A DNA stretch of 64,000 nt from Thermoplasmata archaeon (GTDB lineage Archaea; Thermoplasmatota; Thermoplasmata; RBG-16-68-12; SOIM01): contig JAGLME010000015.1 in NCBI GenBank assembly GCA_023140195.1, forward strand, positions 248,001 through 312,000, given 5' to 3'. Positions 12,241 to 50,429 of this stretch are shown one piece after another (positions within the stretch are counted from its first letter, which is position 1; every line of letters begins with the position of its first letter). The notes below the pieces were generated by a model. It had not been told where the DNA came from, did no database searches, and was given only the letters and a program-made list of their open reading frames with translations. The translations under genes and the position numbers were made by a program.

Positions 12241-12408
12241 CTCAACTCCACCAGTATCGGAATTGTCTGGCTTGTATAAGACGACGCTTGTTCTGAATTC
12301 CATATGCTTTTAAGGAAACTCGCCCGTCTCTGCATAGCGCGAATCTGAAAGGACGATTATTGACGTGTATCCATTGGCTTGAGTTCTGCAACGCACCCGG
12401 TCGTTCGT

Positions 12409-14823: not shown

Positions 14824-14905
14824 TGCATCTCCTCCCAGTGAAACGGAATCTTACTGGAGTACATCAAGTTTCCTCAGATGTGATTTGGGGATACACGGTT
14901 CACTC

Positions 14906-17806: not shown

Positions 17807-17999
17807 ATGTAAGACCCCGTATTAATGGAAATTGGTTCAATATTCAATGGTTTTGAGCGTTTTTCCCTATACTTACAGTCTTCCCAGGTTGCGTTATTTC
17901 GTCTCAGCTTTAATCAGTAGAGTCCAATAGCCGTATTCTCCTCCATCTTTTTTCGTTGAATTGATCTCACGCGTTTCAAGTGTTTCGGTCATCAATGCA

Positions 18000-18332
18000 A
18001 TGAGTGTTCTGTGGCCTATTCCTTTCAGCAAACGGCACAGTCAATCTAGGGTGGGTCTCCCCAGACAAGCAGCAATCTATGCGATTATGACGAGACTGGA
18101 CGCACGGGGGGAGCCAAGTACTTTCCGACCTCTCTATTTCGGTGAATCTGGGAATCTTTCAGAGAGAGGTTTCTTGCGTTCCCATCACAAGTTTGGTTGT
18201 TGGATGAACGAAGCTGGCTCCGCACGGAATCTCTTCATAGCAATCTATACCATGCACCGGAGTACGGAGGCCAGAAGGCGAAATGTTGAGGCTCAGTTGA
18301 TCTCTATGTACAGCCCAACCTGCAACGATTGA
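18000..18332 (+). CDS. GIY-YIG domain protein (compact nuclease-like)
   Basis: About 110 residues from ATG 18000 (track start TTG 17961). The GIY-YIG core is readable: AIYAIM for the GIY strand, PLYFGESGNLSERG for the YIG strand and catalytic Arg region, and NVEAQLISMYSPTCND for the metal-binding Glu helix and C-terminus. The domain is essentially the whole protein, as in stand-alone GIY-YIG proteins rather than homing endonucleases. The first Gly is Ala and the Ile of YIG is Phe, so activity is uncertain. It stands alone between surface-protein genes and may be cargo of the element. Confidence 0.65.
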   Translation: MSVLWPIPFSKRHSQSRVGLPRQAAIYAIMTRLDARGEPSTFRPLYFGESGNLSERGFLRSHHKFGCWMNEAGSARNLFIAIYTMHRSTEARRRNVEAQLISMYSPTCND

Positions 18333-18694
18333 AGAGTCTGAGAGAATCTGTTCTATTCGACTCAATCTAATGCAGTACAGACAACTGGACCCAGAATTCA
18401 TTGGAGTATTGTGGAATCTTGTCACCCTGAAAATGTCGTACCTGGGTATCTACCCCTCTCGATTCAAAAACCACCTCTCCTGTGAGTGTCCCAAAAGCAG
18501 GATATTCTGTCGCACTTGATAATGAAGGAAGACATTTTTTTCTCAATTTTTCTACTAGCTTTGGGCGATTGAGGTGTCCCTGCATTGGTCAAAAGGTTGT
18601 TCCAGAGTTTTCTTATATCCAGTCTTCCATTCTTTTCTCAGGAGAAGACCATGGAGCAGAGGAGGGAGGGGATGAGACCTTCCGGAGGGGTTGC
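18333..18694. other. Intergenic region
   Basis: Contains palindromic repeat copy 4 (18508-18536) followed directly by a seven-T run, a good terminator-like signal. The start of the ORF-track frame (18482) is not supported; the ribosome site for the next gene is at 18684-18690. Confidence 0.5.
18508..18536 (+). repeat. Palindromic repeat copy 4 (TGTCG-N18-GACATT family)
   Basis: TGTCGCACTT ... GAAGACATT followed by TTTTTT. It lies 176 bases 3' of the GIY-YIG gene on the same strand. Confidence 0.75.
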
Positions 18695-20191: not shown

Positions 20192-20228
20192 TGGCGTATC
20201 TGCCGATCTTTGTCCCGAAGGATCATCT

Positions 20229-20257
20229 TGTCGCACTTCGAAAAGAAGGACGACATT
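20229..20257 (+). repeat. Palindromic repeat copy 5 (TGTCG-N18-GACATT family)
   Basis: TGTCG-CACTTC-GAAAA-GAAG-GACGACATT lies 37 bases past the stop of the 18695-20191 gene, in the sense direction. It is nearly identical to copy 3, but on the opposite chromosomal strand. Confidence 0.8.
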
Positions 20258-20370
20258 CCTTCTGTGCTCTGGCGGGACGATATTGGAATTCGGACCTTAA
20301 GCTCAAAGACGAGGGAATGTTAGCAGTTCACGTATTATAGAAACTGCAAGCCTGTCCATCATAGAACCCG

Positions 20371-23300
20371 CTATTCCAATCCCTCTTCGCGGTCAGCGTT
20401 TTCTTCAACATCCAAACGCCTAGACTGAGTAGCCTCTGATGTCGTCCCTTCTCTCGCAGAATCCTTCTCTTCAGACGGGTGTTTCTTGCGCGTTCTCCAC
20501 GCTATGAAAACCACGATTATGGTGACGATTATCAACACAAGGATGATCCACCAATAGTCTATGGCGGTGAGTGGCTCTTCTCCCGGTTTCTCTCCAACTT
20601 CTTTGGTTGTGAAGATTGTTTCGCTGACTGTCACTAAGCTGTTGCCTGCTATGTCCTTGGCCCATGTTGTGATGATGATTCGATAAGTTGTGTTCTTCTC
20701 CAATTCCTCTTTTGGAATGAAGAAGAGCGTACTACCATCAATTGTCCAACTCAGAGATCCTTCCACTTCCACAGTGTCATTCATCAGGTTGAATGAGCTG
20801 CTTGTGGCAGACTGATTCATCCTCTCGGTGAAAGTCACCACGATGTTCGTTGTCGTCTCCAAGTCTCTCTCTCCATCATATGGTGATATGCTGACTATCG
20901 CGGGTGGTGTTGTGTCCAATTCAATGTCGTCAGAGTAAGTAATGGACTCAAGACCAGCATTGTCCTTGATCTGGTAGTAGACCTTCTTCTTTCCATCTCC
21001 AGACGTGAGCATCCACGCTCTAGTCGATGAGGGAGACTCCCAAGGTTCGGTATCCCACAAACCGTCATTGCTGTATCTGACTTGAGAGACGCCCGAGAAC
21101 TTATCTGAGTAAGTCAACCTCAGGCTCACTGATGCTGAGGAGGTCAATTCGGCCCCGTCGTTGATGACTATAGAACCTGTGGGAGGCTTGGTATCCAAAC
21201 CTATGTAGTCCAGATAGGTGATTGACTCCAAACCCGAATTGTCTTTGACCTGGTAATAGATGATCTTTATACCATCGTCACTCTCGATCGTCCATGGCTC
21301 CATTGGAGAGGGTGTCGCCCAGAGCTCCGTATCCCACACACCATCGTTGTTGCTGTACCTGACGAGAGAAACGCCTGAGGTTATGTCGGAATACCCCAAT
21401 GTCAATGCTACCAATGTTGAAGTTGTCCATGCATCCCCATCGTTTATCATGATTGAACCTGTTGGCTCTGTTGTATCCAGACCAATCATATCTGAATAAG
21501 TGATGGACAGCAACCCGACATTGTCCTTGATCTGATAGTAGACGGTCTTTGTTCCATCTCCACGTGTTAGCGGCCATTCTTTAATTGGGAAAGGTATCTC
21601 CCAGGACTCGGAATCCCAGGTGCCATCATTGCTGTATCTCACTTGAGAGACACCTGATGTTGGGTCTAAGTACGTTAGTGAAAGAGTCACCCAAGCGGAT
21701 GTTGTCCATGCATCTCCATCATTTACGATTATTGAACCTGAGGGAGGTGTGGTGTCCAAACCTATATCGTCCGAGTAGATGTTGGAAAGGAGTCCAGCAT
21801 TGTCCCTAACCTGGTAGTAGACATCCTTCGTCCCGTCCCCACTTGCTAGATTCCACGCCTTCGTGGGTGAAGGAGCCTCCCAGGGTTCGGTATCCCAGAC
21901 GCCATCATTGCTGTATCTCACTTGCGATACGCCGGACAGAGCATCTACGTAAGTGAGCATCAGGGTCACGGATGTTGTCGTTGTCCATGTATCTCCACTG
22001 TTTATGATGATCGAACCCGTTGGAGGGGTCGTGTCCACACATACAATTGCGTCCGCAGACGTCGGTGCTGGTTCACCGTTCCCTGAGGTGTCATTGGCGA
22101 TCGTGTAGAACTCGTAGAAACCATCTCCATGCGGGGATGTAAATAGGAAGCTTCCCACGGCAAGCGTACCAGAGATGGTGTTATCGTACGCCCACTCCTC
22201 CCAATCAAGCCAGGTGATGTTATCGGGACTGTACCTATAATAAAGTGAGATATTTGCCAGCCCATAGTCGTCCGTGGCTATCCAGTCAATGTTGAATGTC
22301 GAGGTCGTCTGCCAAAATGGCAATATCAAGTTTGCTTTTGACTCGGGCGGCATGATGTCCTCCGTACTCCTCGTGTATAGGATATCGTTGTCCCCGTCTC
22401 TGCTGTCCGCCCAAGCAACGTGAACCACACCAGTGCCAATAGAAATAGACGGGTAGGTTGTCCATTCTATCCCCACAAACGTTGCAATCTCTTCCTCAGG
22501 CTGCCAGCTCGTGCCATCAAAATACCTATAGTAGATGTCAGTATCCCCTAGCCCCCCTTCCATCCAAACCACATGCACGTTCACACCATCAACCGCTAAG
22601 ACAGGGGCGAACTGTGTCTCCGTCCCCACATCCGAACTTATCTCTTGGTCGGGTTGCCAACTTACCCCGTCAAAGTACCTGTAAAAGATGTCGGAGTCTC
22701 CGTCGTATTTCCTGTCTGCCCAAACGGTGTGCACCTTCCCCCCATTTGCAGCGACTGATGGCAATATTTTGTCCCACATGAAGTCAGTGCTGAGCTCTTC
22801 ATCAGGCTGCCAGCTTATGCCATCAAAGTGCTTGTAGCGGATTCCAAAGAGGCCAAAGGTACTGTTTTCCCAGACGACATGCACTCTTCCGTTCTCTGCA
22901 GCGATTGAGGGGTTCGTATGATCTGCGAACCACGGGTCAGGACTAATTTGCTGCTTGGGTTGCCAGGTTGCTCCATCGAAGCGCATGTAGAAGATATCCC
23001 AGTCCCCGTCACCATAGTCGTGCCAAACCACATGCACACGCCCATTGTCCACTGCGACTTCCGGAGCAGCCTCTTGATTAACCCTCAGGACATCGGTGCT
23101 TAAGCGCAGTTGTGGTTGCCAAGTAGCTCCGTCAAAATGCCCATAGTAGATGTCTGATGTGGTTAGATTCCACTCTTCCCAAACGATGTATACTTTGCCA
23201 TTCTCAACCACGATCGAAGGATTCATTTGCCATTCACTTGCATCATCAATGCTGATTTCCTGCTCAGGTTGCCAACTGGTACCGTTGTAGTATCTGTAGT

Positions 23301-23604
23301 ATATGTCGTAGTCTCCATCTCCGAAATCTGCCCATACGGCATGTACTTCATCGTCTTCCGCTGCAAGAGACACATTCCACTGTTTTTCGGTGGCGATGTC
23401 GGTGCTTATCACCTGTATCGGTTCCCAAAACCTAGCAGCGGCATTTTGGTTCAAGATGGTCATCGGCACGATCATACACAATAAGAGGACAATTAACAGA
23501 GACACCGCTTCCAGATTCCCTCTCTTCTGATACTTTCTCAACCATCTTACACTTGGCAACGCTAATTCCTCCCTCCTGAAATGCATTTCCACACCACCAC
23601 TCAT
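20371..23604 (-). CDS. Giant membrane-anchored surface protein: seven-bladed propeller plus Ig-like array
   Basis: 1077 residues. After a signal segment (AVSLLIVLLLCMIVPMTIL) come seven propeller repeats (about 55-405), each with VHVVW-type and DIYYRYFDG-type strands. A linker domain follows, then four Ig-like units of about 93 residues beginning DTTPPTGSI and containing VSQVRYSNDG and VYYQVKDNAG. A Big_5/SbsA-type Ig domain (IVSISPYDGERDLETTTNIVV) precedes a C-terminal transmembrane helix and a charged tail. Start 23604 has a TTTTATAT box about 23 bases upstream; ATG 23586 is an alternative. Likely a cell-surface binding or adhesion protein. Confidence 0.82.
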   Translation of the reverse strand: MSGGVEMHFRREELALPSVRWLRKYQKRGNLEAVSLLIVLLLCMIVPMTILNQNAAARFWEPIQVISTDIATEKQWNVSLAAEDDEVHAVWADFGDGDYDIYYRYYNGTSWQPEQEISIDDASEWQMNPSIVVENGKVYIVWEEWNLTTSDIYYGHFDGATWQPQLRLSTDVLRVNQEAAPEVAVDNGRVHVVWHDYGDGDWDIFYMRFDGATWQPKQQISPDPWFADHTNPSIAAENGRVHVVWENSTFGLFGIRYKHFDGISWQPDEELSTDFMWDKILPSVAANGGKVHTVWADRKYDGDSDIFYRYFDGVSWQPDQEISSDVGTETQFAPVLAVDGVNVHVVWMEGGLGDTDIYYRYFDGTSWQPEEEIATFVGIEWTTYPSISIGTGVVHVAWADSRDGDNDILYTRSTEDIMPPESKANLILPFWQTTSTFNIDWIATDDYGLANISLYYRYSPDNITWLDWEEWAYDNTISGTLAVGSFLFTSPHGDGFYEFYTIANDTSGNGEPAPTSADAIVCVDTTPPTGSIIINSGDTWTTTTSVTLMLTYVDALSGVSQVRYSNDGVWDTEPWEAPSPTKAWNLASGDGTKDVYYQVRDNAGLLSNIYSDDIGLDTTPPSGSIIVNDGDAWTTSAWVTLSLTYLDPTSGVSQVRYSNDGTWDSESWEIPFPIKEWPLTRGDGTKTVYYQIKDNVGLLSITYSDMIGLDTTEPTGSIMINDGDAWTTSTLVALTLGYSDITSGVSLVRYSNNDGVWDTELWATPSPMEPWTIESDDGIKIIYYQVKDNSGLESITYLDYIGLDTKPPTGSIVINDGAELTSSASVSLRLTYSDKFSGVSQVRYSNDGLWDTEPWESPSSTRAWMLTSGDGKKKVYYQIKDNAGLESITYSDDIELDTTPPAIVSISPYDGERDLETTTNIVVTFTERMNQSATSSSFNLMNDTVEVEGSLSWTIDGSTLFFIPKEELEKNTTYRIIITTWAKDIAGNSLVTVSETIFTTKEVGEKPGEEPLTAIDYWWIILVLIIVTIIVVFIAWRTRKKHPSEEKDSAREGTTSEATQSRRLDVEENADREEGLE

Positions 23605-23623
23605 TAAAGAAATTTGGTCAGCG

Positions 23624-23631
23624 ATATAAAA
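23624..23631 (-). promoter_or_regulatory. TATA box for the 20371-23604 surface protein
   Basis: CTTTTATATC on the minus strand, matching the archaeal TATA consensus, centred about 23 bases before ATG 23604. Confidence 0.5.
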
Positions 23632-23881
23632 GGATGTTTGTACTAACTTCTATATGTTCTTAAAATCTTCTGGTGTTGAGATAACCTGCCCAGTACTCCA
23701 ATTGTCTTCAAGTCGTAAGAAAGCTATCCCGTCCTTAGCACTTGAGATTGTGCAGTCAGGAATGTCATGGTTGCAGGCCCTTGCCTGTTGCTTGGCCACT
23801 CACTCGCCTCTGACATGCTGGAAATATGGACATTCGTCACAGCTAGTAGTGTTCTCCGACATTCCTCTATCTTCAATCGAG

Positions 23882-23910
23882 AATGTCGTCATTCATAGGG
23901 AACAATGACA
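23882..23910 (-). repeat. Palindromic repeat copy 6 (TGTCA-N18-GACATT)
   Basis: Minus-strand TGTCA-N18-GACATT with one change in the left arm. It is 55 bases 3' of the metallopeptidase gene stop, in its sense direction. A neighbouring CGACATTC / GAATGTCG pair (23868-23888) adds a second possible stem. Confidence 0.7.
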
Positions 23911-23964
23911 TTTACTGCAAATGCACTTCAAGCACAGACGGGAAGGTCGCTGTGGTGACCTGAC

Positions 23965-26900
23965 CTATTGTTCTGTCGGTTGTTGCTTTTTCTTTCTTCT
24001 CCAGAGAAGCATTGCCACAACGACAGTCACTATTGTCACTAGAATCAGGAGGTAGAGGGGTACTCCGCCCATGAGGCCATTGGGACTGGATGGATTAGTG
24101 TCTATGGTGAACTCCGTTCTCTTCTCGTTGAGGTTACCAGCTCTATCGACTATTCTTACTATGACGGTGTGAGAGCCGTCATCCAACCCCGTGAATGTAT
24201 GTGTAGTTGTCAATCCAACATCCCAAAAGCTCTGGTCGTCCAATGCTACTTCGTAGCGCTCTATCCCTGATGTTTCGTCGTAACCTGTCCATACAACCGT
24301 CACACTGGAAGCGGTCAGGGTTCCATCACTGCCTGGATCGCTAGTTGTCAGAGTATCGATTCTTGGTTCGGTTCTATCAATCTTAAGAGTCAAGGTCTTT
24401 GCGCTTTCGATATTTCCGGCTATGTCAACCGAGTAGAATTCTATCCTATGTGACCCGTCGCTTGTTATGTTGAGCATGCCCGAATAATCCTGCCACACAC
24501 CACTATCTATCCTATAGCTTGTGTGTCGAACATCACTTGTCACATCAGATGCATCGAGCGCAATTGTCACATCGCTTGTATACCATTCATTTGTACCCAG
24601 TGTTCCAGAGAGTGATGAGCCCGTCCTCGGAGGTTTGGTATCAATCTTCAGCTGGACCGACTTCGTGTTCTCAGTATTCCCTGCATTGTCCACTGAGTAG
24701 TACTCCACCGTGTGTATCATATCGCCAGTAACCATGAAGGGAGTGCTGTAGGTCTGCCACATACCCCCATCTATCCTGTAATTCGTCTGCAGAACACCAC
24801 TTGTCACATCTGATGCGTTGAGGGTGATTGTCACCTCACCTGTGTACCATTCATTCAATCCCTGTTTCCCAGAAAATGATGAATCGGTGTCTGGAACTCC
24901 AGTATCAATCTTCAGCTGGACCGATCTTATATTCTCAGCATTCCCTGCGTTGTCCATTGAGTAATACTCCACTGTGTGTATGCCATTGTCACCGACAACG
25001 ATGGGGCCGCCACAAACCTGCCATATGCCCCCATCTATCCTGTAATTCGTCTGCAGAACACCGCTTGTGCCATCGGATCCAATCAGGGTGATTGTCACAT
25101 CACTTACGTACCATCCATTTGTTCCAAGTGTCCCCAAGAGTGATGAACTCGTGCTTGGATTCACAGCATCAATCTTCAGCTGGACCGACTTCGTGTTCTC
25201 AGTATTCCCCGCGTTGTCCACTGAATAGAATTCCACTGTGTGTATCATATCGCCAGTAACCATGAAGGGAGTGTTGTAGGTCTGCCACATACCCCCATCT
25301 ATCCTGTAATTCGTCTGCAGAACACCACTTGCCACATCAGATGCACTGAGGGTGATTGTTACTTCAGTTGTATACCATCCATTTGTTCCAAGTGTCCCCA
25401 AGAGTGATGAACTCGTGCTTGGAAGCACAGTGTCAATCTTTACTTGGACCGATTTCGTGCTTTCGATGTTCCCTGCGTTGTCCACTGAGTAATACTCCAC
25501 CGTGTGTATCATATCACCAGTAACCATGAAGGGAGTGTTGTAGGTCTGCCAAATGCCCCCATCTATCCTGTAATTCGTCTGCAGAACACCACTTGTCACA
25601 TCTGATGCGTTGAGGGTGATTGTTACTTCAGTTGTATACCATCCGTTTCCTCCTGATGTCCCGGAGAGTGCGGAGCCCGAGCTCGGAGCCACAGTGTCAA
25701 TCTTCACTTGGACCGATTTCGTGCTTTCGACATTCCCTACATTGTCTACTGAGTAGTACTCCATTGTGTGTATCCCATTCGCACTGACAATGAAAGACCC
25801 GCTGTAAGCCTGCCACGAGCCTCCATCTATTCTGTAGTTCGTGTATTGAACACCACTTGTGACATCAAATGCGTTGAGTGTGACTGTAACAGGGGAAATG
25901 TACCAGCTGTTTGCTCCTATGGTCCCAGCAAGGCTTGAACTGGTGCTTGGCGCAACGGTATCAATCGTAACCGTGTCTGAGCCATACGAAGTCTCCCAAT
26001 TGCCAACAGTATTCCTTGCCCTTGTTTCAATAACATGGGCGCCATCAGAGAGGGAGGCTGTGATGAATTCAAATGATTCCACAGCTTCATCAAAAGCGCC
26101 ATCAGAGGCCGTGGCCGGTAGCCAGGGCCCGCCGTCCACTCTGTACTGAACGTCTATTATCGCGTTAATGCTCACGTCATTGCCCGCGTTAACTCTGCGT
26201 CCATCAAAGAACTCATAATACTTCGGATTTCGGTTCTCGAGAGGGACTTCTTCAGCAAGGCCTGTATATGATAGAGAACTACTGGTTGTGGGATTGGGGA
26301 CATAAGGGTCTAGGTTCGTGTTGGGGATCGTATCTTCTGGATCCAGAAGCCCGTCAGCGTCACTATCGAACCAGCCGATTTGTCCCACTGTCCCAGCGGA
26401 AAGGGACCATGAAGCTGTGTCCATCATGCAACCGGAATTGTCGGTCTCACGGACATTGAGATAACCACTGTATTCCCCGGGATCCATATATTCATCCGTC
26501 GCGTAGAACATATGTCCTGTCTCGTGAGCTAGGACCTGGTCCATCCTGTCTATCCCCCAACCGTTGTTATCGTAAGTCATCATGACGAAGGGGCCTCCCC
26601 AAATAAAGGCATACGCAGAGAATCCATCTTCGAAAGATCCGTCTGGATCGTTGAGACTGTCCACTACGAAGATTGTATATGCCCAGTTCTTGTTGTATGT
26701 GCTTCTCACGTAGTTGTTCAAATCCCTGACCTGCCGGTAGAAATCCCCGGAAGTATACCCGAGATTCCCCAGGATTTCATTGATCCACAGACTTTGGTCA
26801 TAATAGGGCCTCGTAATTGGTTCATAGCTTGTTGGCTGTGCTCCGTAGGTGTAGATGTTGAATTCGAGACGTCCATTGGGGATTTGTGATTCCCACCAGT

Positions 26901-27474
26901 CCAAACCAATCAATATCTTGTCATAAACAGCATCCATACGTGTGGAGTCCCAAGTTTCGGTATCTGGATCAATTGCACCATCGCTCTCAGCAAATATCGT
27001 GGTGACTGCCACGGTGCCTATCATATATTCTGTTTGGTCTTCTGGTCCTGGGGGACTTTGCGGCAAACGAGGCGGAGGCGACTGAAGCACAGGTTCTTGG
27101 GCCTCGCCGTCTGGAAGCGACTCGTTCCCACTACTGTATTCAGACCGACCATCTGGTCCCGAGGGACTTCGTGGCAAAGAAGAAATAGGCAACGGCAATG
27201 CGGGTTTGTGACGCTCACCACTAACAGCGAATTCTGTCATATCGCTTTCAAATCCTTCCTGAGCTCTTTGCAGTCCTTCCGAAATCAGGGGATTTCTCGT
27301 TTCATATGAGATTCTTGGCGTGTGTCCGCTCAATGTTGCCGGATTGTCTAACGAACCTGTTGAGGTTCTTATTGAGAATTCTCCTGCGCTCACTTCCTGT
27401 GGCACATAACCCATAATCCCTAGTCCAACAGACGTTACTATCGATACTGCTAACAGAACGCAGCAACCTTTCAT
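23965..27474 (-). CDS. Secreted, membrane-anchored HExxH metallopeptidase with long Ig-like array
   Basis: 1169 residues. A signal peptide (VLLAVSIVTSVGLGIMGYV) and a Pro/Ser-rich spacer with two similar segments precede the peptidase domain (about 150-400). Its zinc site is VLAHETGHMFYATDEY, with His-Glu-x-x-His and a downstream Asp as probable third ligand, followed by CMMDTAS in place of a Met-turn. After it come six Ig-like units of about 88 residues (DTVAPSTSSSL ... YRIDGG ... YYSVDNAGN), a seventh divergent unit, a transmembrane helix (LYLLILVTIVTVVVAMLLW) and a basic tail. It would act as an ecto-protease held at the cell surface. GGAGGCGTGA lies before ATG 27474. Confidence 0.85.
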   Translation of the reverse strand: MKGCCVLLAVSIVTSVGLGIMGYVPQEVSAGEFSIRTSTGSLDNPATLSGHTPRISYETRNPLISEGLQRAQEGFESDMTEFAVSGERHKPALPLPISSLPRSPSGPDGRSEYSSGNESLPDGEAQEPVLQSPPPRLPQSPPGPEDQTEYMIGTVAVTTIFAESDGAIDPDTETWDSTRMDAVYDKILIGLDWWESQIPNGRLEFNIYTYGAQPTSYEPITRPYYDQSLWINEILGNLGYTSGDFYRQVRDLNNYVRSTYNKNWAYTIFVVDSLNDPDGSFEDGFSAYAFIWGGPFVMMTYDNNGWGIDRMDQVLAHETGHMFYATDEYMDPGEYSGYLNVRETDNSGCMMDTASWSLSAGTVGQIGWFDSDADGLLDPEDTIPNTNLDPYVPNPTTSSSLSYTGLAEEVPLENRNPKYYEFFDGRRVNAGNDVSINAIIDVQYRVDGGPWLPATASDGAFDEAVESFEFITASLSDGAHVIETRARNTVGNWETSYGSDTVTIDTVAPSTSSSLAGTIGANSWYISPVTVTLNAFDVTSGVQYTNYRIDGGSWQAYSGSFIVSANGIHTMEYYSVDNVGNVESTKSVQVKIDTVAPSSGSALSGTSGGNGWYTTEVTITLNASDVTSGVLQTNYRIDGGIWQTYNTPFMVTGDMIHTVEYYSVDNAGNIESTKSVQVKIDTVLPSTSSSLLGTLGTNGWYTTEVTITLSASDVASGVLQTNYRIDGGMWQTYNTPFMVTGDMIHTVEFYSVDNAGNTENTKSVQLKIDAVNPSTSSSLLGTLGTNGWYVSDVTITLIGSDGTSGVLQTNYRIDGGIWQVCGGPIVVGDNGIHTVEYYSMDNAGNAENIRSVQLKIDTGVPDTDSSFSGKQGLNEWYTGEVTITLNASDVTSGVLQTNYRIDGGMWQTYSTPFMVTGDMIHTVEYYSVDNAGNTENTKSVQLKIDTKPPRTGSSLSGTLGTNEWYTSDVTIALDASDVTSDVRHTSYRIDSGVWQDYSGMLNITSDGSHRIEFYSVDIAGNIESAKTLTLKIDRTEPRIDTLTTSDPGSDGTLTASSVTVVWTGYDETSGIERYEVALDDQSFWDVGLTTTHTFTGLDDGSHTVIVRIVDRAGNLNEKRTEFTIDTNPSSPNGLMGGVPLYLLILVTIVTVVVAMLLWRRKKKQQPTEQ
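24370..25990 (-). repeat. Tandem Ig-like coding repeats (about 264-bp period)
   Basis: Within the metallopeptidase gene, six units of about 88 codons are nearly identical over long DNA stretches. For example, ctatcctgtaattcgtctgc occurs near 24773, 25034, 25298 and 25562. Such homogeneity implies recent expansion or gene conversion. Confidence 0.8.
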
Positions 27475-32267: not shown

Positions 32268-33536
32268 TCAGACAGCATCTTCTGCGTCTGCCCCGTCGCC
32301 AATGATTGAAGAACCAAACAGTCGAGAAAGATTTCTCGGGTAGTTCTCGAGGGCATTCAACAAAGCCTCAGGAAAAGGAAAGTCCCCGTGTTTATTCTTC
32401 CAGACAATGATGCGCTCTCCCTCCCTATCTGGTAAGCTGTGCTCGATATAGACCCTATGTTCTTTGGACATTGCTCTCTCTGTAACACTCTCGAAGATGT
32501 ATGGCGGGGCAATCAGGATAAGTGCAGATAGTACGGGATACGTGGCAAGAACCGCTCCCACGTCATCAGCGGGATCTTCAAAGAACTGTATAGATTCCTC
32601 GGCTGGCAAGAACCTGTCATAGATGACCAACAAGCCAGGCTCCTTCTTTTGGAGCTGATTGCTTTTTCCTTTGGTCTGAATCTTCCGGATGATTTGTTCC
32701 TTCTTGTGCAACGATGATCGGCTCCACGTTCTGAACTTGCCGCGCGAATGCTCGGGTATCTCGTGGGCCAAATCTCTCGGAGCAACGTAAAGTGTCACCA
32801 ATCCCGGGTAGTTCCGCTTGACCATCTTGTTCTTCCTCAGCGCTTCGTCAACGGCTCCTTCCACAACATGTTCCAGCTCTCTAACGTGGTTAGGGGTTCG
32901 GAGATCGCAAATCACGCCTCCTCCTGTAACCTTGTTGTAGAACAACTTCGAATGTACGTATCCGAATGCATCAGAAGCCCGTTTGGCCTCATCTGGAAGG
33001 TTCATGGATGTAATCTCAAGTCCCGCGAGGTGCCCATCAAACTCCGCCATTAGATCAGGAGTTTGAGTCTCTGGGGAAGCCTCTATGAATTCAACTCGAA
33101 TTCCACCCAGATGCAGTTTCAATGCGAAGTCCAGTTCAGCAAGAGCACCATTGTACTCAGCGGCAATGGCCAGCTTCTTGATAACTCCCTCCGATCCCTT
33201 TGTGGTGCTGAGTTTCTGCAGTTTCTGGGCGAAGTGCATCAACCACAGGTAGTTGGGCTCAGAAGCTTGCACGAGCTTTGACCGGAGTGGATGGTCCAAG
33301 GTCTGTGTTTCATCCCAGTCGTCCCTCAGGAGACTCTCCAGATATAGGACAGCTTTGAGCGCATCCTCGCCTGAATCGTATCCACTGCTTGCGCTCTCAT
33401 GAAAAGTGAGGGTCATGTCCCAGAAGTTGATGGAAGCCACAGACTTCTTATCATGATGGAGGGCTTGAAGTTTTCCCGTGGTCTCAGGAATGCAATTTTT
33501 GGTACTCTTCCCTGGGAGAAATCGCATTATTCTCAT
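32268..33536 (-). CDS. Nuclease-like protein (PD-(D/E)XK variant with ExT)
   Basis: About 423 residues from ATG 33536; the ORF-track start 33767 adds an atypical Pro/Ser-rich segment. A TTAATAC box lies about 30 bases before 33536, suiting a leaderless start. The middle contains EYNGALAELDFALKLHLGGI followed by TPDLMAEFD and GLEITSMN. That is the helix-Glu, PD and E-x-[KT] order of the restriction-endonuclease fold, but with Thr where Lys is usual. A helical C-terminal half follows with ERIIVWKNKHG. Function is inferred as DNA cleavage or an inactive relative; it lies among other nuclease-like genes. Confidence 0.6.
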   Translation of the reverse strand: MRIMRFLPGKSTKNCIPETTGKLQALHHDKKSVASINFWDMTLTFHESASSGYDSGEDALKAVLYLESLLRDDWDETQTLDHPLRSKLVQASEPNYLWLMHFAQKLQKLSTTKGSEGVIKKLAIAAEYNGALAELDFALKLHLGGIRVEFIEASPETQTPDLMAEFDGHLAGLEITSMNLPDEAKRASDAFGYVHSKLFYNKVTGGGVICDLRTPNHVRELEHVVEGAVDEALRKNKMVKRNYPGLVTLYVAPRDLAHEIPEHSRGKFRTWSRSSLHKKEQIIRKIQTKGKSNQLQKKEPGLLVIYDRFLPAEESIQFFEDPADDVGAVLATYPVLSALILIAPPYIFESVTERAMSKEHRVYIEHSLPDREGERIIVWKNKHGDFPFPEALLNALENYPRNLSRLFGSSIIGDGADAEDAV

Positions 33537-33891
33537 CGGAGGATGACATTCGTTGCCTTGTGTATTAACAACACAAATCTTCACTCTTGAAGAATACTCT
33601 AGTCGAGGATGGGATTTTGCGAATCGTTGAGGATGATATTTCTCAGCAGGTTCAGGACTTGCCAAAGCGAAGGCATAACTCAGGCTGAATGTGATTGGTA
33701 GATATTCGATCAAAAAGGGTGAGCAGAGTTGTTGTAGTTGTGGAGGTGAGTTGGTTGAGATAGGCAATTAGGCGGGGCATTTTGAAATGTCAAGATGAGC
33801 TATAATTTGAGTGTGGAACAAGGCCAGCGAAAGCTCTCTGAATCGATCCTGTACACTTGTGAGCGTGCATAATAGTGCTTTCTACAACTTG

Positions 33892-34938
33892 TTAGATCCT
33901 ATATTCCTCGGCCATTCCAAGACATTTCTCTGCTTCCTTGTTCCTATTCAATCTCTGGAGACATACCCCTTTGCTATAACATGCATTTGCATCTTTGGGA
34001 TCTAACTCCAAGGCTTTATCGAAGTATCCAAGAGCTTCATCATATCGTTCTAGGTTGTAAAGAGCAAGACCTTTGTTATAACATGCATTTGCATCTTTGG
34101 GATCTAACTCCAAGGCTTTATCGAAGTATCCAAGAGCTTCATCGTAATCAGCATCAAAGTGGCTCATATTCCCCAGGGTAACATAAAGCTCAGCATCCGG
34201 GGTCTCGCCATACTTTTCAGAATACACCTTCGCTGCATCTTCCATCGATTTCTTGAATCTTCTGTCTTGTGCTGTAACCACTATCTTCTTCTCTGGGTCG
34301 ATACCTTCTCCAAATTTGCTCTTTGCAAGTTCAATACCTTCTTTTTCCTTTTGTACGTACTCTATGGCAGCTTCTCTATCGTTTACTTCCATTCTGTCTT
34401 TCAAATCCTCAAACTTCGCCAAAAGCTTTGATTCCAACTCATCAAATCTCTCCTGCCACTTCGCATCTAAACTGGCAACTTTCTTTCCCACTGCCCTTAC
34501 CTCATCCCCTATATCCGCAAACCTCTTCGAGAGAAAATCACTTAGATCTTCATAGTTCTCGTCAATACCCCCCATCATCAACTCAAGCGTTTCGGTAATC
34601 TCATCATGATAACTTCCCATATCCTCGCTCATAACCTCCAATCTGCTGACCAAGAATTCAAAACGGTCTTCTTCAGAATCTCTCAACTCTACTAAGAAAT
34701 CTTCAATAGCTTCAACTTCAATTTCAGTATCATCTGAATACTTTTCTTCAATGAACTTGGAAATTGGCCCACCTATAATTGGGATCTTTCTAACTTCATT
34801 TGCAACTGCTTCCACTATTACTTTCTTACCTTTTGTCTTAATTGCTCCTAGTGTTTTGTTCTTGATATTAGTTAGGGCTGTCCAAATGTGAGATCTTATT
34901 CCCTCCCTACAACGTATATCCATCGAGGGTTGAAGCAT
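33892..34938 (-). CDS. TPR protein with coiled-coil N-terminal domain
   Basis: 348 residues from ATG 34938 (track start TTG 34944). An N-terminal segment with KIPIIGGPISKFIEEKY is followed by a long charged coiled coil (about 85-200). From about 230 there are three or four tetratricopeptide repeats; two are nearly identical (YDEALGYFDKALELDPKDANACYxKG). TPR units bind partner proteins. In defence islands such proteins often act as sensors or adaptors for a nearby effector, but no partner is established. The DNA encoding the twin TPRs is duplicated exactly over 67 bases. Confidence 0.75.
   Translation of the reverse strand: MLQPSMDIRCREGIRSHIWTALTNIKNKTLGAIKTKGKKVIVEAVANEVRKIPIIGGPISKFIEEKYSDDTEIEVEAIEDFLVELRDSEEDRFEFLVSRLEVMSEDMGSYHDEITETLELMMGGIDENYEDLSDFLSKRFADIGDEVRAVGKKVASLDAKWQERFDELESKLLAKFEDLKDRMEVNDREAAIEYVQKEKEGIELAKSKFGEGIDPEKKIVVTAQDRRFKKSMEDAAKVYSEKYGETPDAELYVTLGNMSHFDADYDEALGYFDKALELDPKDANACYNKGLALYNLERYDEALGYFDKALELDPKDANACYSKGVCLQRLNRNKEAEKCLGMAEEYRI
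33975..34041 (-). repeat. Exact 67-bp direct repeat, unit A (TPR coding)
   Basis: Identical to 34077-34143 with a 102-base offset, exactly one 34-residue TPR. No synonymous change separates the units, so the duplication or conversion is recent. Confidence 0.9.
34077..34143 (-). repeat. Exact 67-bp direct repeat, unit B (TPR coding)
   Basis: Partner of 33975-34041, inside the same TPR gene. Confidence 0.9.
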
Positions 34939-34975
34939 ACTCAAAGTTAATAATCCTTTTCGTCAAATTGACATC

Positions 34976-39629: not shown

Positions 39630-40451
39630 ATGGATGTTGAAAAACTCTTCAAATCAAGCTGGCACTACGAGGGTGTCCACAAACTGCCTCCCAAGGGAGG
39701 GACTATCAAGACAGCTCGATTCGAGAAACCGAAACTCCAGGAGTTCGGAGGAATAGTACCTGGAGTAGGAGAACCGTACAGGCTGACCGCGATAACCAAG
39801 CACTCTGAAAGAGACGACATGATTCATTGCGGTCTATCTTCGAACCTCTACTTCAAGCTCATGAGAGGCATTCTGAATGGTGGGGTCCCTGACCGCAAAC
39901 ATCTCAAAGGCTTTCGATATCAACTTCTGCTGGAACAGCAGTGCATCGTTGCACTGGCCTCGGTCTTCGAGACATTTGCAAAAAGCATCATCAAAGACGT
40001 CAAGAGATTCAGGCATGTGCCGCACAACTTCGACGAGATAGAGAAATTCTTGCTGAAGAAAGGCATCAAGATACGAGACCTTGGAGATCTGAAGAAAAAG
40101 AACAATTATGAGAGAACAAGAAAGATCGTTGATTATCTCTTCCTGGTTCGCAATCTAATAGTACACAACGGAGGCATTGTTGACGATCCCTTCTGGAGGA
40201 AGTATCGTGGACGGATCAAGAAGAAGACCGTTGGCAAGCTGATAAGAATAGAATACTCTGACCTATCAGCAATGAGGAGCTGGGTATCCTACTTGGTGCA
40301 GGAGATATGCAAGGAGGTTCCAGACTACCACGATGTTTGGCTTGATTTTGTTCAGAGCGTGGGTATCATCATCCCTGGAGAGATTAGGGCTAGGCCCGTG
40401 TTCATCGATGGATCAGTGGGACCGGGATTTGGGTTGGAAGAGGGGAAATGA
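39630..40451 (+). CDS. HEPN-domain protein (Rx4H)
   Basis: 273 residues. A helical domain (about 95-240) begins GFRYQLLLEQQCIVALASVFETFAKSI and carries VRNLIVHNGG, in which Arg174 and His179 form the Rx4H catalytic motif of HEPN RNases. The N- and C-terminal parts are unassigned. It lies 82 bases after the GGCT-like gene and may be co-transcribed with it. The second HEPN protein of the island. The fold is inferred from the motif and helical pattern. Confidence 0.68.
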   Translation: MDVEKLFKSSWHYEGVHKLPPKGGTIKTARFEKPKLQEFGGIVPGVGEPYRLTAITKHSERDDMIHCGLSSNLYFKLMRGILNGGVPDRKHLKGFRYQLLLEQQCIVALASVFETFAKSIIKDVKRFRHVPHNFDEIEKFLLKKGIKIRDLGDLKKKNNYERTRKIVDYLFLVRNLIVHNGGIVDDPFWRKYRGRIKKKTVGKLIRIEYSDLSAMRSWVSYLVQEICKEVPDYHDVWLDFVQSVGIIIPGEIRARPVFIDGSVGPGFGLEEGK

Positions 40452-40563: not shown

Positions 40564-41976
40564 TCAACGGCCAAGGATCTCACGGGACAGTTGCTGGCGA
40601 CTCATCAGATCACCGAGGTACTGCAAAACTTCACCGATTCCGCATCCGTCTTCAGCCAGCTCAAGAAGTTCCAACGAACTCTCCTTGTCAATCAAGAGGA
40701 TTCCATCGCTCTTCAGACGCACAAGGTCAGCCGGGTTTATCAGATCCCGTGATAGAGTCGTTGCCAGTACTCCAACAACTCTCGTCCCTGGTGCAACGGA
40801 TCCAATATGTCGAAGTCGAGCGACGAATTTGGTGGCTTTATGCCGAAGATCCGGTTCGGCGATTGTACATTCGATTACAAACGCGACGGTGGGATCTAAT
40901 GCCCAAGCTAGAATGTCAGGGTTTGCCTTGTCTTCTGCTCCGACATGAATGCAGGTGAATCCAAGGAATGACATGAGCTCGACAATGGCTTGCTCAAACC
41001 CTTTGCTAGGTTTCTTGGCTCTTCCACTCAATGCCCTTCTAAAGTCCTCAAGATTTGGATCCACAGATGAGCCCACACTCATCCTAGGGTTCCGTCCGCT
41101 CACTCGATTTCGATATAGATCCAACCGGTCCACAGAGTCTCCTCTGTAGGAGAGTAGGAGCTGGACATGATTCGATAGCTTCGTAACAGGGATCTCACTT
41201 TTGAGAAACACTTGCCTTTCCTTGCCTCTTGACGCAATTTGGAGAGATTGTCGGTCTCGCCGTAGGACCATACCCCCCTCCTTTTCAATTATCCCCACAG
41301 ACGCCTTGCTCAATTTGCAGCCTTCGCGCATCATAGCCTTGACTAAAACATTTTCAGACTCAAGAACTGAGCCCTGCTCGAATCGAAGCCAAATAGGTGC
41401 AATAATCTCAAGTTGACTGTGACACCAAGCATTCTTGTAGTCTTCGCTACCTGTATACGTCCTCACTAGATCATACATCCCTCCGAATGGTTTGTCAAGG
41501 GATGCGAGTCTTGACTCTAGTGATTCAAAACCTTCGGTTCCAATGCTCGCCATGACTGTCGACTCCCCTCCAGACAGAATGAAGCAGCGTGCATCAATGT
41601 TCATCAACCGGAGGCTATCCTGCCTCTTATAGGCCCGGAAGGTAGGTGAATAAGGATTCCCAAATCCAGAATGGTCTATTCTCTGGTAACTAATATCTGC
41701 TTTCTCCCATTCAAATTTCCCCGTCTTGAAGACATCAAGGATCCTTTCTATGTCGTCAATGGGCAGAAGGGCTCCCTCTATCAGCAAATCAGGAAGATTG
41801 GGAGGCTTTGCAGAGAATCTGAACCGTTTTGGTGTCTGTGTGCTCATTATAGCTCGTGTGGACAGGTTCACCCAGTGGGTTTCCCATTTGAAGGCGACCA
41901 AGTAAAACTCGATTGCTTTGTAGTCTTTCCTCAGCTGTTGTGTTGTGTCCAAGAATCGTCGAATGGGGTCTTTCAT
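40564..41976 (-). CDS. Large protein with C-terminal PD-(D/E)XK-like domain
   Basis: 470 residues. The first 310 residues are a mixed domain without recognised motifs. The C-terminal part shows the restriction-endonuclease-fold order: FEQAIVELMSFLGF (helix Glu), HVGAEDKANPDILAW (Asp354) and VAFVIECTI (Glu369-Cys-Thr371), followed by RHKATKFVARL. The VIECT variant with a downstream Lys/Arg helix occurs in known restriction-like families. A TTTTATAT box at 42005-42012 on the minus strand is about 32 bases before the ATG. No methyltransferase is adjacent, so a modification-dependent or abortive role is more likely than classic restriction. Confidence 0.68.
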   Translation of the reverse strand: MKDPIRRFLDTTQQLRKDYKAIEFYLVAFKWETHWVNLSTRAIMSTQTPKRFRFSAKPPNLPDLLIEGALLPIDDIERILDVFKTGKFEWEKADISYQRIDHSGFGNPYSPTFRAYKRQDSLRLMNIDARCFILSGGESTVMASIGTEGFESLESRLASLDKPFGGMYDLVRTYTGSEDYKNAWCHSQLEIIAPIWLRFEQGSVLESENVLVKAMMREGCKLSKASVGIIEKEGGMVLRRDRQSLQIASRGKERQVFLKSEIPVTKLSNHVQLLLSYRGDSVDRLDLYRNRVSGRNPRMSVGSSVDPNLEDFRRALSGRAKKPSKGFEQAIVELMSFLGFTCIHVGAEDKANPDILAWALDPTVAFVIECTIAEPDLRHKATKFVARLRHIGSVAPGTRVVGVLATTLSRDLINPADLVRLKSDGILLIDKESSLELLELAEDGCGIGEVLQYLGDLMSRQQLSREILGR

Positions 41977-45353: not shown

Positions 45354-46031
45354 ATGACGAGTTACACTGTGTGGAAGTTCGTGAAATTCCGCTCGGGTAG
45401 TAACACAATACATGCACATGTGGACGCTGTTCATGCAGCCCCTCCAAGACACGACAAATACGCTGGTCAGATTGCAGACGCCATAGCTAAGATGGCAGGA
45501 TGCAGTGTAATCGTGGCCACTGTGTCGAGAGATATTGCAGATCTAAATAGACCTCCTAACGAAAGCAACCAAGAAGCCATCAAGGAGTACAGACGGGCGA
45601 TTAGGCTCATCTTGGAGCACCTTGGCAATCTTGATGTCAATGGGAAGGCTGCAAGACCCTATCTGCATCTAGCAATTCATGGTATGGCAGACACAGGGGA
45701 TGGCGATATTGAGATTGGAACTCGGTTCGGAGAGACTTGCTCAGAGAATATCAAGGATTGGCTTGTCAACAGAATAGATTCTTGGGGGGAGGAGGTACAG
45801 GTGGACAGGAGGTTCCCCGGAAATCCCTCCAAGTCGTTTCATAGATGCGGTGACAGCAGGAGCGACCTGGAGTATTTGGGCTACGGAGATAACTTCAACA
45901 CATTTCAAGTGGAAATTGGCAGAACGCTGAGAGAGAAATACCGAAGAAAGCTAATCAACAGATTCGCAGAGATTGTCGTGGATTTCAATGATACTTTTGA
46001 TTCCGCTACTACTCGCCAGGACGCGGATTAG
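45354..46031 (+). CDS. N-formylglutamate amidohydrolase-like zinc hydrolase
   Basis: 225 residues. It shows the order of motifs in the N-formylglutamate amidohydrolase family: an N-terminal His-rich metal loop (IHAHVDAVHAAPPRHD), ATVSRDIADLNRPP, LHLAIHGMAD, IGTRFGETCS and FQVEIGRTLR. The family hydrolyses formyl or acyl amino acids using one zinc. No histidine-catabolism genes are near, and the gene is paired with a nuclease-like gene nine bases upstream, so a metabolic role is doubtful. GAGGG precedes ATG 45354. The pairing with a nuclease has no known precedent that I can name. Confidence 0.72.
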   Translation: MTSYTVWKFVKFRSGSNTIHAHVDAVHAAPPRHDKYAGQIADAIAKMAGCSVIVATVSRDIADLNRPPNESNQEAIKEYRRAIRLILEHLGNLDVNGKAARPYLHLAIHGMADTGDGDIEIGTRFGETCSENIKDWLVNRIDSWGEEVQVDRRFPGNPSKSFHRCGDSRSDLEYLGYGDNFNTFQVEIGRTLREKYRRKLINRFAEIVVDFNDTFDSATTRQDAD

Positions 46032-46334: not shown

Positions 46335-49300
46335 CTATTCCAGCGTTCTTCTTTGAACATGAAATCGAGCGCTCGCCCTAATTTTGGATATCACATCGGA
46401 AGGACCCGCTATCTTGTGTTTCTCCAAGATAAGGAGGTCCTCACGGGTGCCTATGGCCTGCACGCACGTTGCTGCGATCTCAAGACCTTCAATTGTAGGG
46501 TGGGAGGCGAGCCAGCGATCCACAAGGTCGAGAGCTCGGTCCCTCGAATCGTGTCGTTTATCGAACTCTTCCAACCAGTACCCAACTCGCCATTTACCAT
46601 GCCTGTCGGCCAAAAACTCATTCAAGTCTTGAAGCAATTCATCGTCAGACGGATGGTAATCCCTCCTGAGCTTTTCGCTAAGTAGATTCGAAAGATGTTG
46701 TTGGCTCCATTCAGGGACCCCAAGTCGCTGGCATACTTCCGCCAATTCCCTGAGGTCATGCTCGCCTAAACGATCGAGATATGGTACTAGGTTTTCCAGG
46801 TGACCTACTGTCAAATACTTCTGTCTTTCGCTGTCCAAGAAACCGAAGTGAAAGTCGATGTGTTTGAATACGGGGACGTCGTTTGGACATTGAATTATGC
46901 TTGAAGAAGCGAGTTCGAGACACTTCGGAGTGCCAACATATAAGGCCGTCTGTATGAATAAGGGGCTGTAGCCAAGATGGTTCCAGTACTTGGTCAGTAG
47001 TATTTCGGCGTCCCTCGCGGGAATCATCATAAGCAATCTCGAAATCATATAGTGGATATCCAACCTGTCGCTCATGAAATCTTTCGAAATGTTATCCTTG
47101 AACGATTCCAAATGACGTTCTGCTACATTCATGATTTCATTGCACCATACGTAGTGAGCAACACTGAACCAATGAGTTTCGGTCGATAACAACGGAAGTA
47201 TATCTCGTACCACGCTTTGGTCACCGAGTTGGGCCCGCTTCCATAACGCTCTGTGGAAAAGAGGCGGAGTCTGTGGAATAACTCTCAGAATGTCGATTTC
47301 GGTCCATTCTACATTTGTGAGCCACAGGCGAAAGGCCTCTGTTTTCACGAATTCATCATTCTGTGGATTTTCCCACAAAGCCCTTAGCCTTGCCCAAGAT
47401 GCTTGTGACAGTCTGCGACCTCCCCTGCGGGAGTTATTCCAGTTGTCGACGATCATCGCCGTCCAAGGTGAAAATCTCTCTGTACCAGCTATCTCTCGCT
47501 CAATTCTGGCGGCACTTCGCACAATAAACTCGATTGCATTAGGTGTGTCAATTTTGTCGCACATAAACGTAATAGGCCAGCGCAACGATTCGTGCACATC
47601 GCACTGTTTGACAAGATAATCGATAACATCATCACGGATTCCACGTGCCAGTGCAAAACGAAGGTACTTCGCCATCTGTACTTTTGGCGATATACCGCGG
47701 GTGTTCTCTTCATCAGGCAAGCTAGCCCAACACGCCATCAGTGGGTCCAAGATGTCGCTAGGATTGGCTCCGCTACATTGGGTAGCAGCCCAAATCGCTT
47801 CTGGAAGAGTCCCTATTCTGTCCGTTGAGAGTCTCCAACATGCTGCTATCTCGTCCTGTAGATCAGTCAGGCCCAAGAAACCTGCCAATGCCAGAGACCC
47901 CTTTCGATTTCTGTCTGTTACTGTAGAGGATATCAATAGCATTTTCAGTTCCCTTAGGAGTTGTTCTCTGTGTTTCATCTTCGCATGGTCTAATATCCGA
48001 TCGCGCAGACCATCATTAATCCCAGGTGCGAAGTCCCCCCGAGTGCCGAAATATGAAGCACCGCTTTCTGCGCACCCATTGCGCAACCGGGCCAGAAGAA
48101 CCAGTGGATATGCACGTAACCTCTCAGTTACTTCAAGAACTGCTGGGGAGTCTGTTTCTAGAAGACTCCAACAAACAGCATTGATTACCGAATCTGGAGT
48201 GGCGCCCTTTGCCATTCCGCTTTCCATCCACTGCTTGACTTCGCCGATAATAGCCTTATGGTTGCTAGATGTGGGTATCCCAAAACACCGGATGGCTTCT
48301 ACTAGTGACAGGGGATTTCTATTCCGCATTTCTGCGAGAAACTCTCGATGTTGGGGAGAAATCAGAAGGGCACGGCCAATTATTCCCGCGTAGTATGGTT
48401 CTTCCAATACTTCAGAGTCTGACATGGAGTCTGTTAGTATCGTCACCATACTTCCAACAAGCAAAGTCTCCAGGATACGGTCATGACGGAAAACCAATTC
48501 TTCTTGGTCTCTCAATCGACAAAGCATGGAACGTCGAATGAGTTCTCTCATCGCTTTCAGATTTGAGTTCTCTCCCAACCATCTTTTGATTTCCTCCCAA
48601 GAAGGTTGGTGTTCTCGCTTTCGTAGCATATGAAGGCATGTAGTAGAGAGCGCCTTGCGATAATCGGACGACAAATAGGAGGCCCCAGGAGCGGAAGCAG
48701 CATCCTTAAGGCTAGATGTCACGAAGTTCTCGACAACGTCCTCCGCTAAAACATTGAGGTCGCTTTGCTTGGCGTTTGTAAGGAGTGAACTGAGCAAACC
48801 TATCATAACAGGGTCCCTTCCCATTTTGGTGGCCAAGTCACTGGCTTCTGCACTTGAGATTTCCACATCAGCATGGGAAGTCGCTACACGAACAGCCAGT
48901 GTTGCCTCTGCCAAAGTCATGGGGCCAATGATGATGGTATGTATCCAGGGTAATCTGGTGAGATTGTCCTCCATTTGCCCCCAAATGTGAGGCCATACGG
49001 GACACACAACAATGTGTTGTGAGACTGAGGAAGGCGAATCAGGAATGGTCGACGGTTGGGGCCTAGACCAAGAGAGGATCCTATGTAGTAGTCTTGTGGG
49101 CGCTTCCGCCCTGTTCACGTCATCCAAAACAATAAGAAGTTGTGAACCTTCTCGAACGAGCTGCAGGGCAACTCTCCCCGCTTCAGGTGATAAATGCGGA
49201 TGGAGAGCCTGCAAAACCTTGCTAATCACCTCCTCCAACGACAAACACTCATTGACCAAACTGGCAGGTGCCCACAAACCGTATCCACCGGACTGCAAGT

Positions 49301-50066
49301 GATTCTGCAATGCTCGGTAGGCTGTAACACTCTTGCCAAAACCAGATTCACCAACGAGGAACTGAATCGTATACCTATTGCTGCATATCCCCCCTTGAAC
49401 TTCGTCCTCAATCTGGCGCTGGACCCAGCTATCAGGAACTGACAGGAGAAACTCCCTTTCGTAGTGAGTCAAGCTCTGCATGCAAAGGCTTTGTAACAGG
49501 GACTCTGATAGCATCTCGGCATCAATACCAAGGTATTGCTTCCTGAGCCAATGGCCCTCAGAAGTATTGTCCAAAAAATCTGATAAGCGGGACTGATCCC
49601 AAATATCGCACATGACGTCAAATTCTTCCTCCTTTTCGTGAACTGACTGCAAGAGAGTCATGTCGGGACGTTGGTTGGTAGCCAGAATAACAGTGAATTT
49701 TGCCTTGGGAAATTCCTTTCTGATTTCTTGGGCCAAACGGCCAGCCTTGATCAAGTCTCCATCCGTACTCTTCGATGCCGCCTTCGTTTCTGGAGCCGAT
49801 GTCCCGTCGTATAGCCATTTTCTCTTTAGCTCCCTTCTATCTGTCGATGTGGTCTGAAGAATCAGGAAGTGAGGAGGTCTACTTCCCGGGGCGCGGCAGA
49901 ATCCATCTACCGGTGACTTCACTGGTTCCCCAGCGGCATTTACTCCAGTCTGCAAAATGTGTGGGTAGTCTCGGTCCACCTTGTGCAACACTGAAACCAC
50001 CAGGAGCTCAAACTGGCCCCTATCTGTCATTGCTTCGAGAGCTTCAGCCGTATTCAAATTGACCAT
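46335..50066 (-). CDS. Giant STAND NTPase with N-terminal nuclease-like domain (Avs-like)
   Basis: 1243 residues. The N-terminal 90 residues look like a PD-(D/E)XK variant: FELLVVSVLHKV, SPVDGF (Asp54), FLILQTTSTDRRELKRKWL. The NTPase core follows with Walker A GESGFGKS (239-246) and Walker B LLIVLDD (310-316), then a winged-helix-like stretch. The last 700 residues are helical, repeat-like and rich in Trp/Leu, the usual ligand-sensing part. This three-part plan is that of antiviral Avs-type STAND proteins, which recognise a viral protein and then trigger a nuclease. It is the outermost gene of the element, 344 bases from attR. Confidence 0.78.
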   Translation of the reverse strand: MVNLNTAEALEAMTDRGQFELLVVSVLHKVDRDYPHILQTGVNAAGEPVKSPVDGFCRAPGSRPPHFLILQTTSTDRRELKRKWLYDGTSAPETKAASKSTDGDLIKAGRLAQEIRKEFPKAKFTVILATNQRPDMTLLQSVHEKEEEFDVMCDIWDQSRLSDFLDNTSEGHWLRKQYLGIDAEMLSESLLQSLCMQSLTHYEREFLLSVPDSWVQRQIEDEVQGGICSNRYTIQFLVGESGFGKSVTAYRALQNHLQSGGYGLWAPASLVNECLSLEEVISKVLQALHPHLSPEAGRVALQLVREGSQLLIVLDDVNRAEAPTRLLHRILSWSRPQPSTIPDSPSSVSQHIVVCPVWPHIWGQMEDNLTRLPWIHTIIIGPMTLAEATLAVRVATSHADVEISSAEASDLATKMGRDPVMIGLLSSLLTNAKQSDLNVLAEDVVENFVTSSLKDAASAPGASYLSSDYRKALSTTCLHMLRKREHQPSWEEIKRWLGENSNLKAMRELIRRSMLCRLRDQEELVFRHDRILETLLVGSMVTILTDSMSDSEVLEEPYYAGIIGRALLISPQHREFLAEMRNRNPLSLVEAIRCFGIPTSSNHKAIIGEVKQWMESGMAKGATPDSVINAVCWSLLETDSPAVLEVTERLRAYPLVLLARLRNGCAESGASYFGTRGDFAPGINDGLRDRILDHAKMKHREQLLRELKMLLISSTVTDRNRKGSLALAGFLGLTDLQDEIAACWRLSTDRIGTLPEAIWAATQCSGANPSDILDPLMACWASLPDEENTRGISPKVQMAKYLRFALARGIRDDVIDYLVKQCDVHESLRWPITFMCDKIDTPNAIEFIVRSAARIEREIAGTERFSPWTAMIVDNWNNSRRGGRRLSQASWARLRALWENPQNDEFVKTEAFRLWLTNVEWTEIDILRVIPQTPPLFHRALWKRAQLGDQSVVRDILPLLSTETHWFSVAHYVWCNEIMNVAERHLESFKDNISKDFMSDRLDIHYMISRLLMMIPARDAEILLTKYWNHLGYSPLFIQTALYVGTPKCLELASSSIIQCPNDVPVFKHIDFHFGFLDSERQKYLTVGHLENLVPYLDRLGEHDLRELAEVCQRLGVPEWSQQHLSNLLSEKLRRDYHPSDDELLQDLNEFLADRHGKWRVGYWLEEFDKRHDSRDRALDLVDRWLASHPTIEGLEIAATCVQAIGTREDLLILEKHKIAGPSDVISKIRASARFHVQRRTLE

Positions 50067-50409: not shown

Positions 50410-50429
50410 TTCAAATCCGGGCGGGCCCA
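50410..50429 (+). repeat. attR core (exact copy of tRNA-Pro 3' end)
   Basis: ttcaaatccgggcgggccca, identical to 3342-3361. The rest of the tRNA is absent here, so this is the original chromosomal 3' end of the tRNA displaced by integration. Confidence 0.9.

Follow-up and report, generated by a model that had tools for sequence, protein, structure and literature searches.

A STAND protein with a nuclease-like N-terminal domain, carried by an integrated archaeal island and shared with bacteria, is a probable single-gene immune sensor

The large gene located at one border of an integrated island in a Thermoplasmata archaeon raises the question of what a protein that joins a nuclease-like domain, a STAND ATPase and a long helical region does for its carrier, and where such a protein comes from. 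In the window, i.e., the whole stretch of 64,000 nucleotides analysed here, this gene lies at 46335-50066 on the minus strand, and a sequence-only reading had presented its product as an archaeal Avs-like STAND NTPase. We propose that one gene probably encodes here a complete intracellular immune sensor, of STAND/NLR type and with a nuclease effector, carried as cargo by an integrative archaeal element.

The open reading frame starts with an ATG, is devoid of internal stops and encodes 1243 amino acids, and the host genome holds a single copy of it. It is a real gene and not a chance frame, since seven plasmid proteins and 28 bacterial loci match it, with full-length homologs among them. The coordinates and the motifs read from the letters were recovered exactly on this strand (FELL at residues 19-22, SPVDGF at 51-56, QTT at 71-73, GESGFGKS at 239-246 and LLIVLDD at 310-316), and an alignment of 34 sequences of the family shows these motif residues to be invariant or almost so. 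A convergent gene at 45354-46031 encodes an N-formylglutamate amidohydrolase-like protein (Pfam FGase, 5.9e-11).

The island is delimited by the 3' end of a tRNA-Pro gene (3287-3361), whose last 20 nucleotides, TTCAAATCCGGGCGGGCCCA, form attL at 3342-3361 and are repeated exactly as attR at 50410-50429, 47 kb away from the tRNA gene and from the adjoining tyrosine integrase gene (3413-4702, plus strand; Pfam Phage_integrase, 1.6e-7). GC content is mostly 0.40-0.53 within these limits versus about 0.48-0.55 outside. The STAND gene sits just within the attR boundary, and its announced position beside attR is thus borne out by the exact repeat, the integrase next to the tRNA gene and the drop in GC inside the island. 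The archaeal host is likewise confirmed by the flanks, which carry archaeal Bud32 and archaeal Dph6.

The central part of the protein (about residues 217-545, 48432-49418) was assigned as a STAND ATPase followed by a winged-helix region on the basis of sub-threshold Pfam matches, all to P-loop families (AAA_16 at E 9e-5, AAA_22, NACHT and NB-ARC), and of Foldseek comparisons. In the alignment, G242, G244 and K245 of the Walker A motif (49329-49352) and D316 of the Walker B motif (49119-49139) are present in 34/34 proteins, as are F526, R527, H528 and D529 of an FRHDR motif (residues 526-530, 48477-48491) located where STAND proteins have their winged-helix His; in the model this motif comes after helices and a hairpin at model positions 296-332. 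The model of residues 195-1243 (pLDDT 88.2) retrieved NLRP9, NLRP14, the Pyrococcus ATPase 2qen, plant NLRs, NAIP/NLRC4 and HEAT-type solenoids. The last 700 residues or so (546-1243, 46338-48431) form an all-helical solenoid in this confident model, consistent with the helical repeat recognized earlier, and would constitute the sensor. Among the homologs, Pfam at E 1e-3 gave HEAT_2 in one protein and nSTAND3 in another. With its Walker A/B core, a winged helix carrying a conserved His and C-terminal repeats forming a superstructure, the protein is by the features tested a STAND protein, and the non-STAND outcome did not occur. The best PDB matches of its C-terminal 1049 residues are animal and plant NLRs (NLRP9, NLRP14, NAIP/NLRC4, RPP1 and WRR4A), with which it shares the order of STAND ATPase, winged helix and repeat sensor; it differs from them by a nuclease-like effector in place of a death, TIR or coiled-coil domain and by a helical solenoid in place of leucine-rich repeats.

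The N-terminal domain (residues 1-187, 49506-50066) was examined by AlphaFold2 and Foldseek. The model of residues 1-215 (pLDDT 90.8) displays, in order, helices, strands ending at residues 58 and 73, helices, a strand at 123-130, a helix and a strand at 152-156. The first two PDB matches are chains of Avs4 (8dgf_A and 8dgf_B; probability 1.00, E 3.8e-3 and 2e-2); EcoT38I comes next and then the nicking enzyme Nt.BspD6I. The best of these matches is remote (E 3.8e-3, TM 0.40-0.47, 13% identity) and none in the PDB has an E below 1e-3, so that the presence of the PD-(D/E)XK core fold is held with moderate confidence; the assignment draws on the agreement among the matched restriction-type enzymes and on the strand order, not on one score. 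The expectation of a nuclease-like fold was thereby upheld by structure prediction, with Avs4 as the best match, and the non-nuclease outcome did not arise. At the sequence level, phmmer and hmmsearch identified no credible match among PDB sequences, since those to PPR and sigma-factor entries were short or compositional and were discarded, and the Pfam library lacks this nuclease domain. It is the most conserved part of the protein, its mean pairwise identity reaching 44%, compared with 32% in the ATPase region and 28-30% in the solenoid.

Residue conservation in the alignment of 34 family proteins, read on the model, allowed us to delineate a putative active site. E20 (50007-50009) lies in the first long helix, D54 (49905-49907) at the start of strand 2 in the 'PD' position, and strand 3 ends with Q71-T72-T73 (49848-49856), which stand where ExK is expected. 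K83 (49818-49820) belongs to the helix that follows (77-85), ten residues past T73, and G103-D104-x-x-K107 (49746-49760) opens the helix 104-118. E20, G41, D54, T73, K83, G103 and D104 are found in 34/34 sequences, and K107 in 33. Position 71 is occupied by His (22 proteins), Glu (8), Gln (2) or Ala (2), and position 72 by His (31), Phe (2) or Thr (1), the proteins without H72 being exactly the three archaeal ones. The family motif is therefore [H/E/Q/A]-H-T, with [H/E]-H-T as consensus. This is not a canonical D...(D/E)XK site, as D54 is present, the (D/E) position varies and Thr stands for the catalytic Lys throughout. The sequence-only reading was thus right that ExK is replaced by something non-canonical, and wrong about the form of the replacement, QTT being a divergent outlier of the family in which only the Thr is constant.

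This pattern suggests a migrated-lysine active site in which K83 would act as the catalytic Lys. Replacement and migration of the acidic and Lys residues are known in the PD-(D/E)XK superfamily, including Vsr with FXH (PMC1189080). In COG4636/Tt1808, the Lys has left its strand position for a spatially adjacent helix (PMC551604), an arrangement that the placing of K83 in the helix after strand 3 resembles; the likeness is one of arrangement, and COG4636 keeps its Glu (PD-EXX-K), whereas in the present family this position varies and the Thr is invariant. The PD-QXK variant of Mrr-like nucleases, as in Type ISP enzymes (PMC3874165), offers a parallel for Gln in place of Glu, as in Q71, but these enzymes retain the Lys where this family has Thr. 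We infer that the N-terminal domain is an active, non-canonical nuclease.

The missing canonical Lys could also mean that the domain is inactive or not a nuclease, and the rival explanation that survives best is that a catalytically dead restriction endonuclease fold binds DNA or mediates oligomerisation, the STAND assembly itself killing or regulating. The loss of the (D/E)XK half-motif, with four residues tolerated at position 71 and Thr always at 73, speaks for it. Decayed active sites usually drift, whereas this domain is the best conserved of the protein and keeps E20, D54, T73, K83, G103 and D104 unchanged in 34 sequences from many phyla; non-canonical sites, migrated Lys included, are moreover documented in the superfamily. 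On balance we regard a dead domain as unlikely. Two orphan proteins of the same island (40564-41976 and 32268-33767) contain D...ECT and D...EIT motifs with a Lys nine residues past the Thr, a Thr-plus-later-Lys pattern similar to that of the STAND protein. The link that had been drawn between them holds as a motif resemblance but not as kinship, as comparison of profiles revealed no relationship between the nuclease domain and either protein; searches of plasmids and of some 290 genomes from the host's phylum found no match to either orphan.

In other organisms, 35 homologous loci were identified, 28 in bacterial genomes and seven on plasmids, two of the latter haloarchaeal. The seven plasmid proteins, found by translated search, align over 90-100% of the length of the window protein with 23-39% identity (E down to 0) and come from Pseudanabaena, two haloarchaea, Aliarcobacter (two), Sphingomonas and Acinetobacter. 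A translated search of GTDB species genomes, seeded with two peptide patterns, gave at least 28 loci with 24-50% identity, distributed in Cyanobacteria, Pseudomonadota, Myxococcota, Latescibacterota, Bacteroidota and other phyla, and among 390 genomes of the host's phylum the host's own gene was the sole representative. The family was not seen in the virus records searched, namely a phage collection and IMG/VR, the latter scanned with the protein and two alignments. In a maximum-likelihood tree obtained by quick search, the window protein clusters with proteins of Nostoc, Scytonema, Anabaena and Pseudanabaena with a support of 100, apart from the two haloarchaeal proteins, and it shares 51% identity with the Nostoc homolog over 1220 columns. 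The nearest relatives thus appear cyanobacterial, and the gene was probably transferred between domains of life. Tree placement and identity to Nostoc further suggest, under uneven sampling, that transfer between bacteria and archaea occurred more than once. In four loci (L020, L031, L033 and L035) the homolog's frame is broken, with an uninterrupted stretch of at most 65-82% of the match, pointing to decaying copies or assembly errors. On the Halalkalicoccus plasmid NZ_CP144464.1, much of one segment occurs twice, at about 5-38 kb and at about 126-159 kb, with many identical protein accessions, the STAND homolog included, as a result of duplication or assembly redundancy; the second copy, bearing the same accession, was accordingly rejected as a paralog.

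The system consists of one gene of constant architecture. Searches of plasmids with the nuclease alone or with the solenoid alone returned the same seven proteins, and hence no effector swapping is seen in plasmids. Comparison of neighbours across loci yielded no partner gene common to the family, recurrent neighbours being limited to those shared by close relatives and to some element-type genes, resolvases among them. In two loci (L029, 13670-16267, and L031, 4008-6605), a gene for an 865-residue protein, 86% identical between the two, directly follows the homolog and is possibly a lineage-specific partner.

These surroundings bear on a second rival, according to which the protein serves not defence but the maintenance, transcription or conjugation control of a mobile element, as a regulator of STAND type or an ATPase in stress signalling. 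Transcription regulators do exist among STAND proteins; furthermore, the window copy resides on an island, and the plasmid homologs lie amid mostly ordinary genes, many neighbours across the family being ordinary metabolic ones. However, a fused restriction endonuclease-like domain is atypical of regulators, the gene is not tied to any one type of element, and known defence-type genes recur next to the homologs: a Shedu nuclease, a Lit-family exclusion protein, an AbiEii-type toxin and toxin-antitoxin genes, to which pooled PADLOC scans of neighbours add AriA, AbiLi, HEC-01A, GajA and others in a few cases. We consider a regulatory role very unlikely.

The relation to Avs proteins calls for a distinction between mode of action and membership. 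The term 'Avs-like' is fair for the probable working mode and for an effector fold resembling that of Avs4, but assignment to Avs1-5 is not supported, as the Avs models tested did not recognize the protein. PADLOC at E<=1 and NCBIfam both returned nothing for it, and the best 50 Foldseek matches of residues 195-1243 include no Avs structure, neither Avs4 nor Avs3. Its homologs gave only weak PADLOC matches to P-loops (mad8, mad3 and Nhi); kinship with MADS was rejected, the mad8 and mad3 matches of the Acinetobacter homolog spanning the P-loop region only. In Avs1-4, recognition of terminase or portal leads the nuclease to cut the DNA of both phage and host (PMC12931631). Avs4 (AVAST type 4; PDB 8dgf, bound to the portal of phage PhiV-1) is likewise a single protein with an N-terminal domain of similar nuclease fold, a STAND ATPase and a long C-terminal sensor, but identity over the nuclease domain is 13% and the site of the present family is [H/E/Q/A]-x-T with a Lys in the next helix. 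That the protein belongs to the Avs4 clade, though strongly diverged, and senses portal in the same way, as the top two PDB matches of its nuclease domain might imply, seems to us least probable of all, given that Avs models ignore it and that its STAND-solenoid part retrieves neither Avs4 nor Avs3 among the best 50.

For the single-gene immune sensor that we favour, the following mechanism can be envisaged by analogy with Avs1-4. The STAND ATPase would hold the resting protein as an inactive monomer until the solenoid encounters and binds an invader's product, be the invader a virus or another element. Binding would trigger ATP exchange and oligomerisation, bringing together several N-terminal domains, which would then cut DNA, that of the invader and probably that of the host as well, and so end the infection. 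The variant PD-(D/E)XK site would comprise E20 and D54, the degenerate position 71 (H/E/Q/A), Thr73 in place of Lys, and K83 from the next helix. Sequence and confident models show the domain make-up, the residue conservation, the constant one-gene form, the mobile setting and the spread over two domains of life, from which the defence role, the trigger, oligomerisation, DNA cleavage and the function of K83 are inferred. No experiment on any member of the family was found in the open-licence literature. A bolder version is put forward as a tentative proposal, somewhat less probable than not: an uncatalogued, cross-domain NLR-like family of fixed architecture, with a new PD-(D/E)XK site (E-D-[H/E/Q]xT and a Lys displaced by ten residues). 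Its members would respond to a viral product different from terminase and portal, and the gene would have passed between cyanobacteria and the archaeon.

To our knowledge, NLR-type immunity has been little described in archaea. This full-length example, probably an uncatalogued virus-defence protein moving between two domains of life, comes with named bacterial relatives, a domain map and a few invariant residues that make its mechanism directly testable. If real, the pairing of an invariant Thr in place of Lys with an invariant Lys one helix further on would be an additional catalytic configuration for the nuclease superfamily. Surveys relying on the PADLOC 2023 models or on Pfam would miss the family, since it is absent from the former and its nuclease domain from the latter.

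Other genes of the island deserve mention. Its middle (10636-27474) is occupied by a run of large repeat proteins, apparently secreted or exposed at the surface, with, for instance, 264-nt repeat units at 24490-25845. A TPR protein is encoded at 33892-34944, where one 102-nt repeat is duplicated in tandem and nearly identical (97%), and the gene at 39630-40451 shows a weak HEPN (RiboL-PSP) match (E 0.003) and may encode a ribonuclease toxin-like protein.
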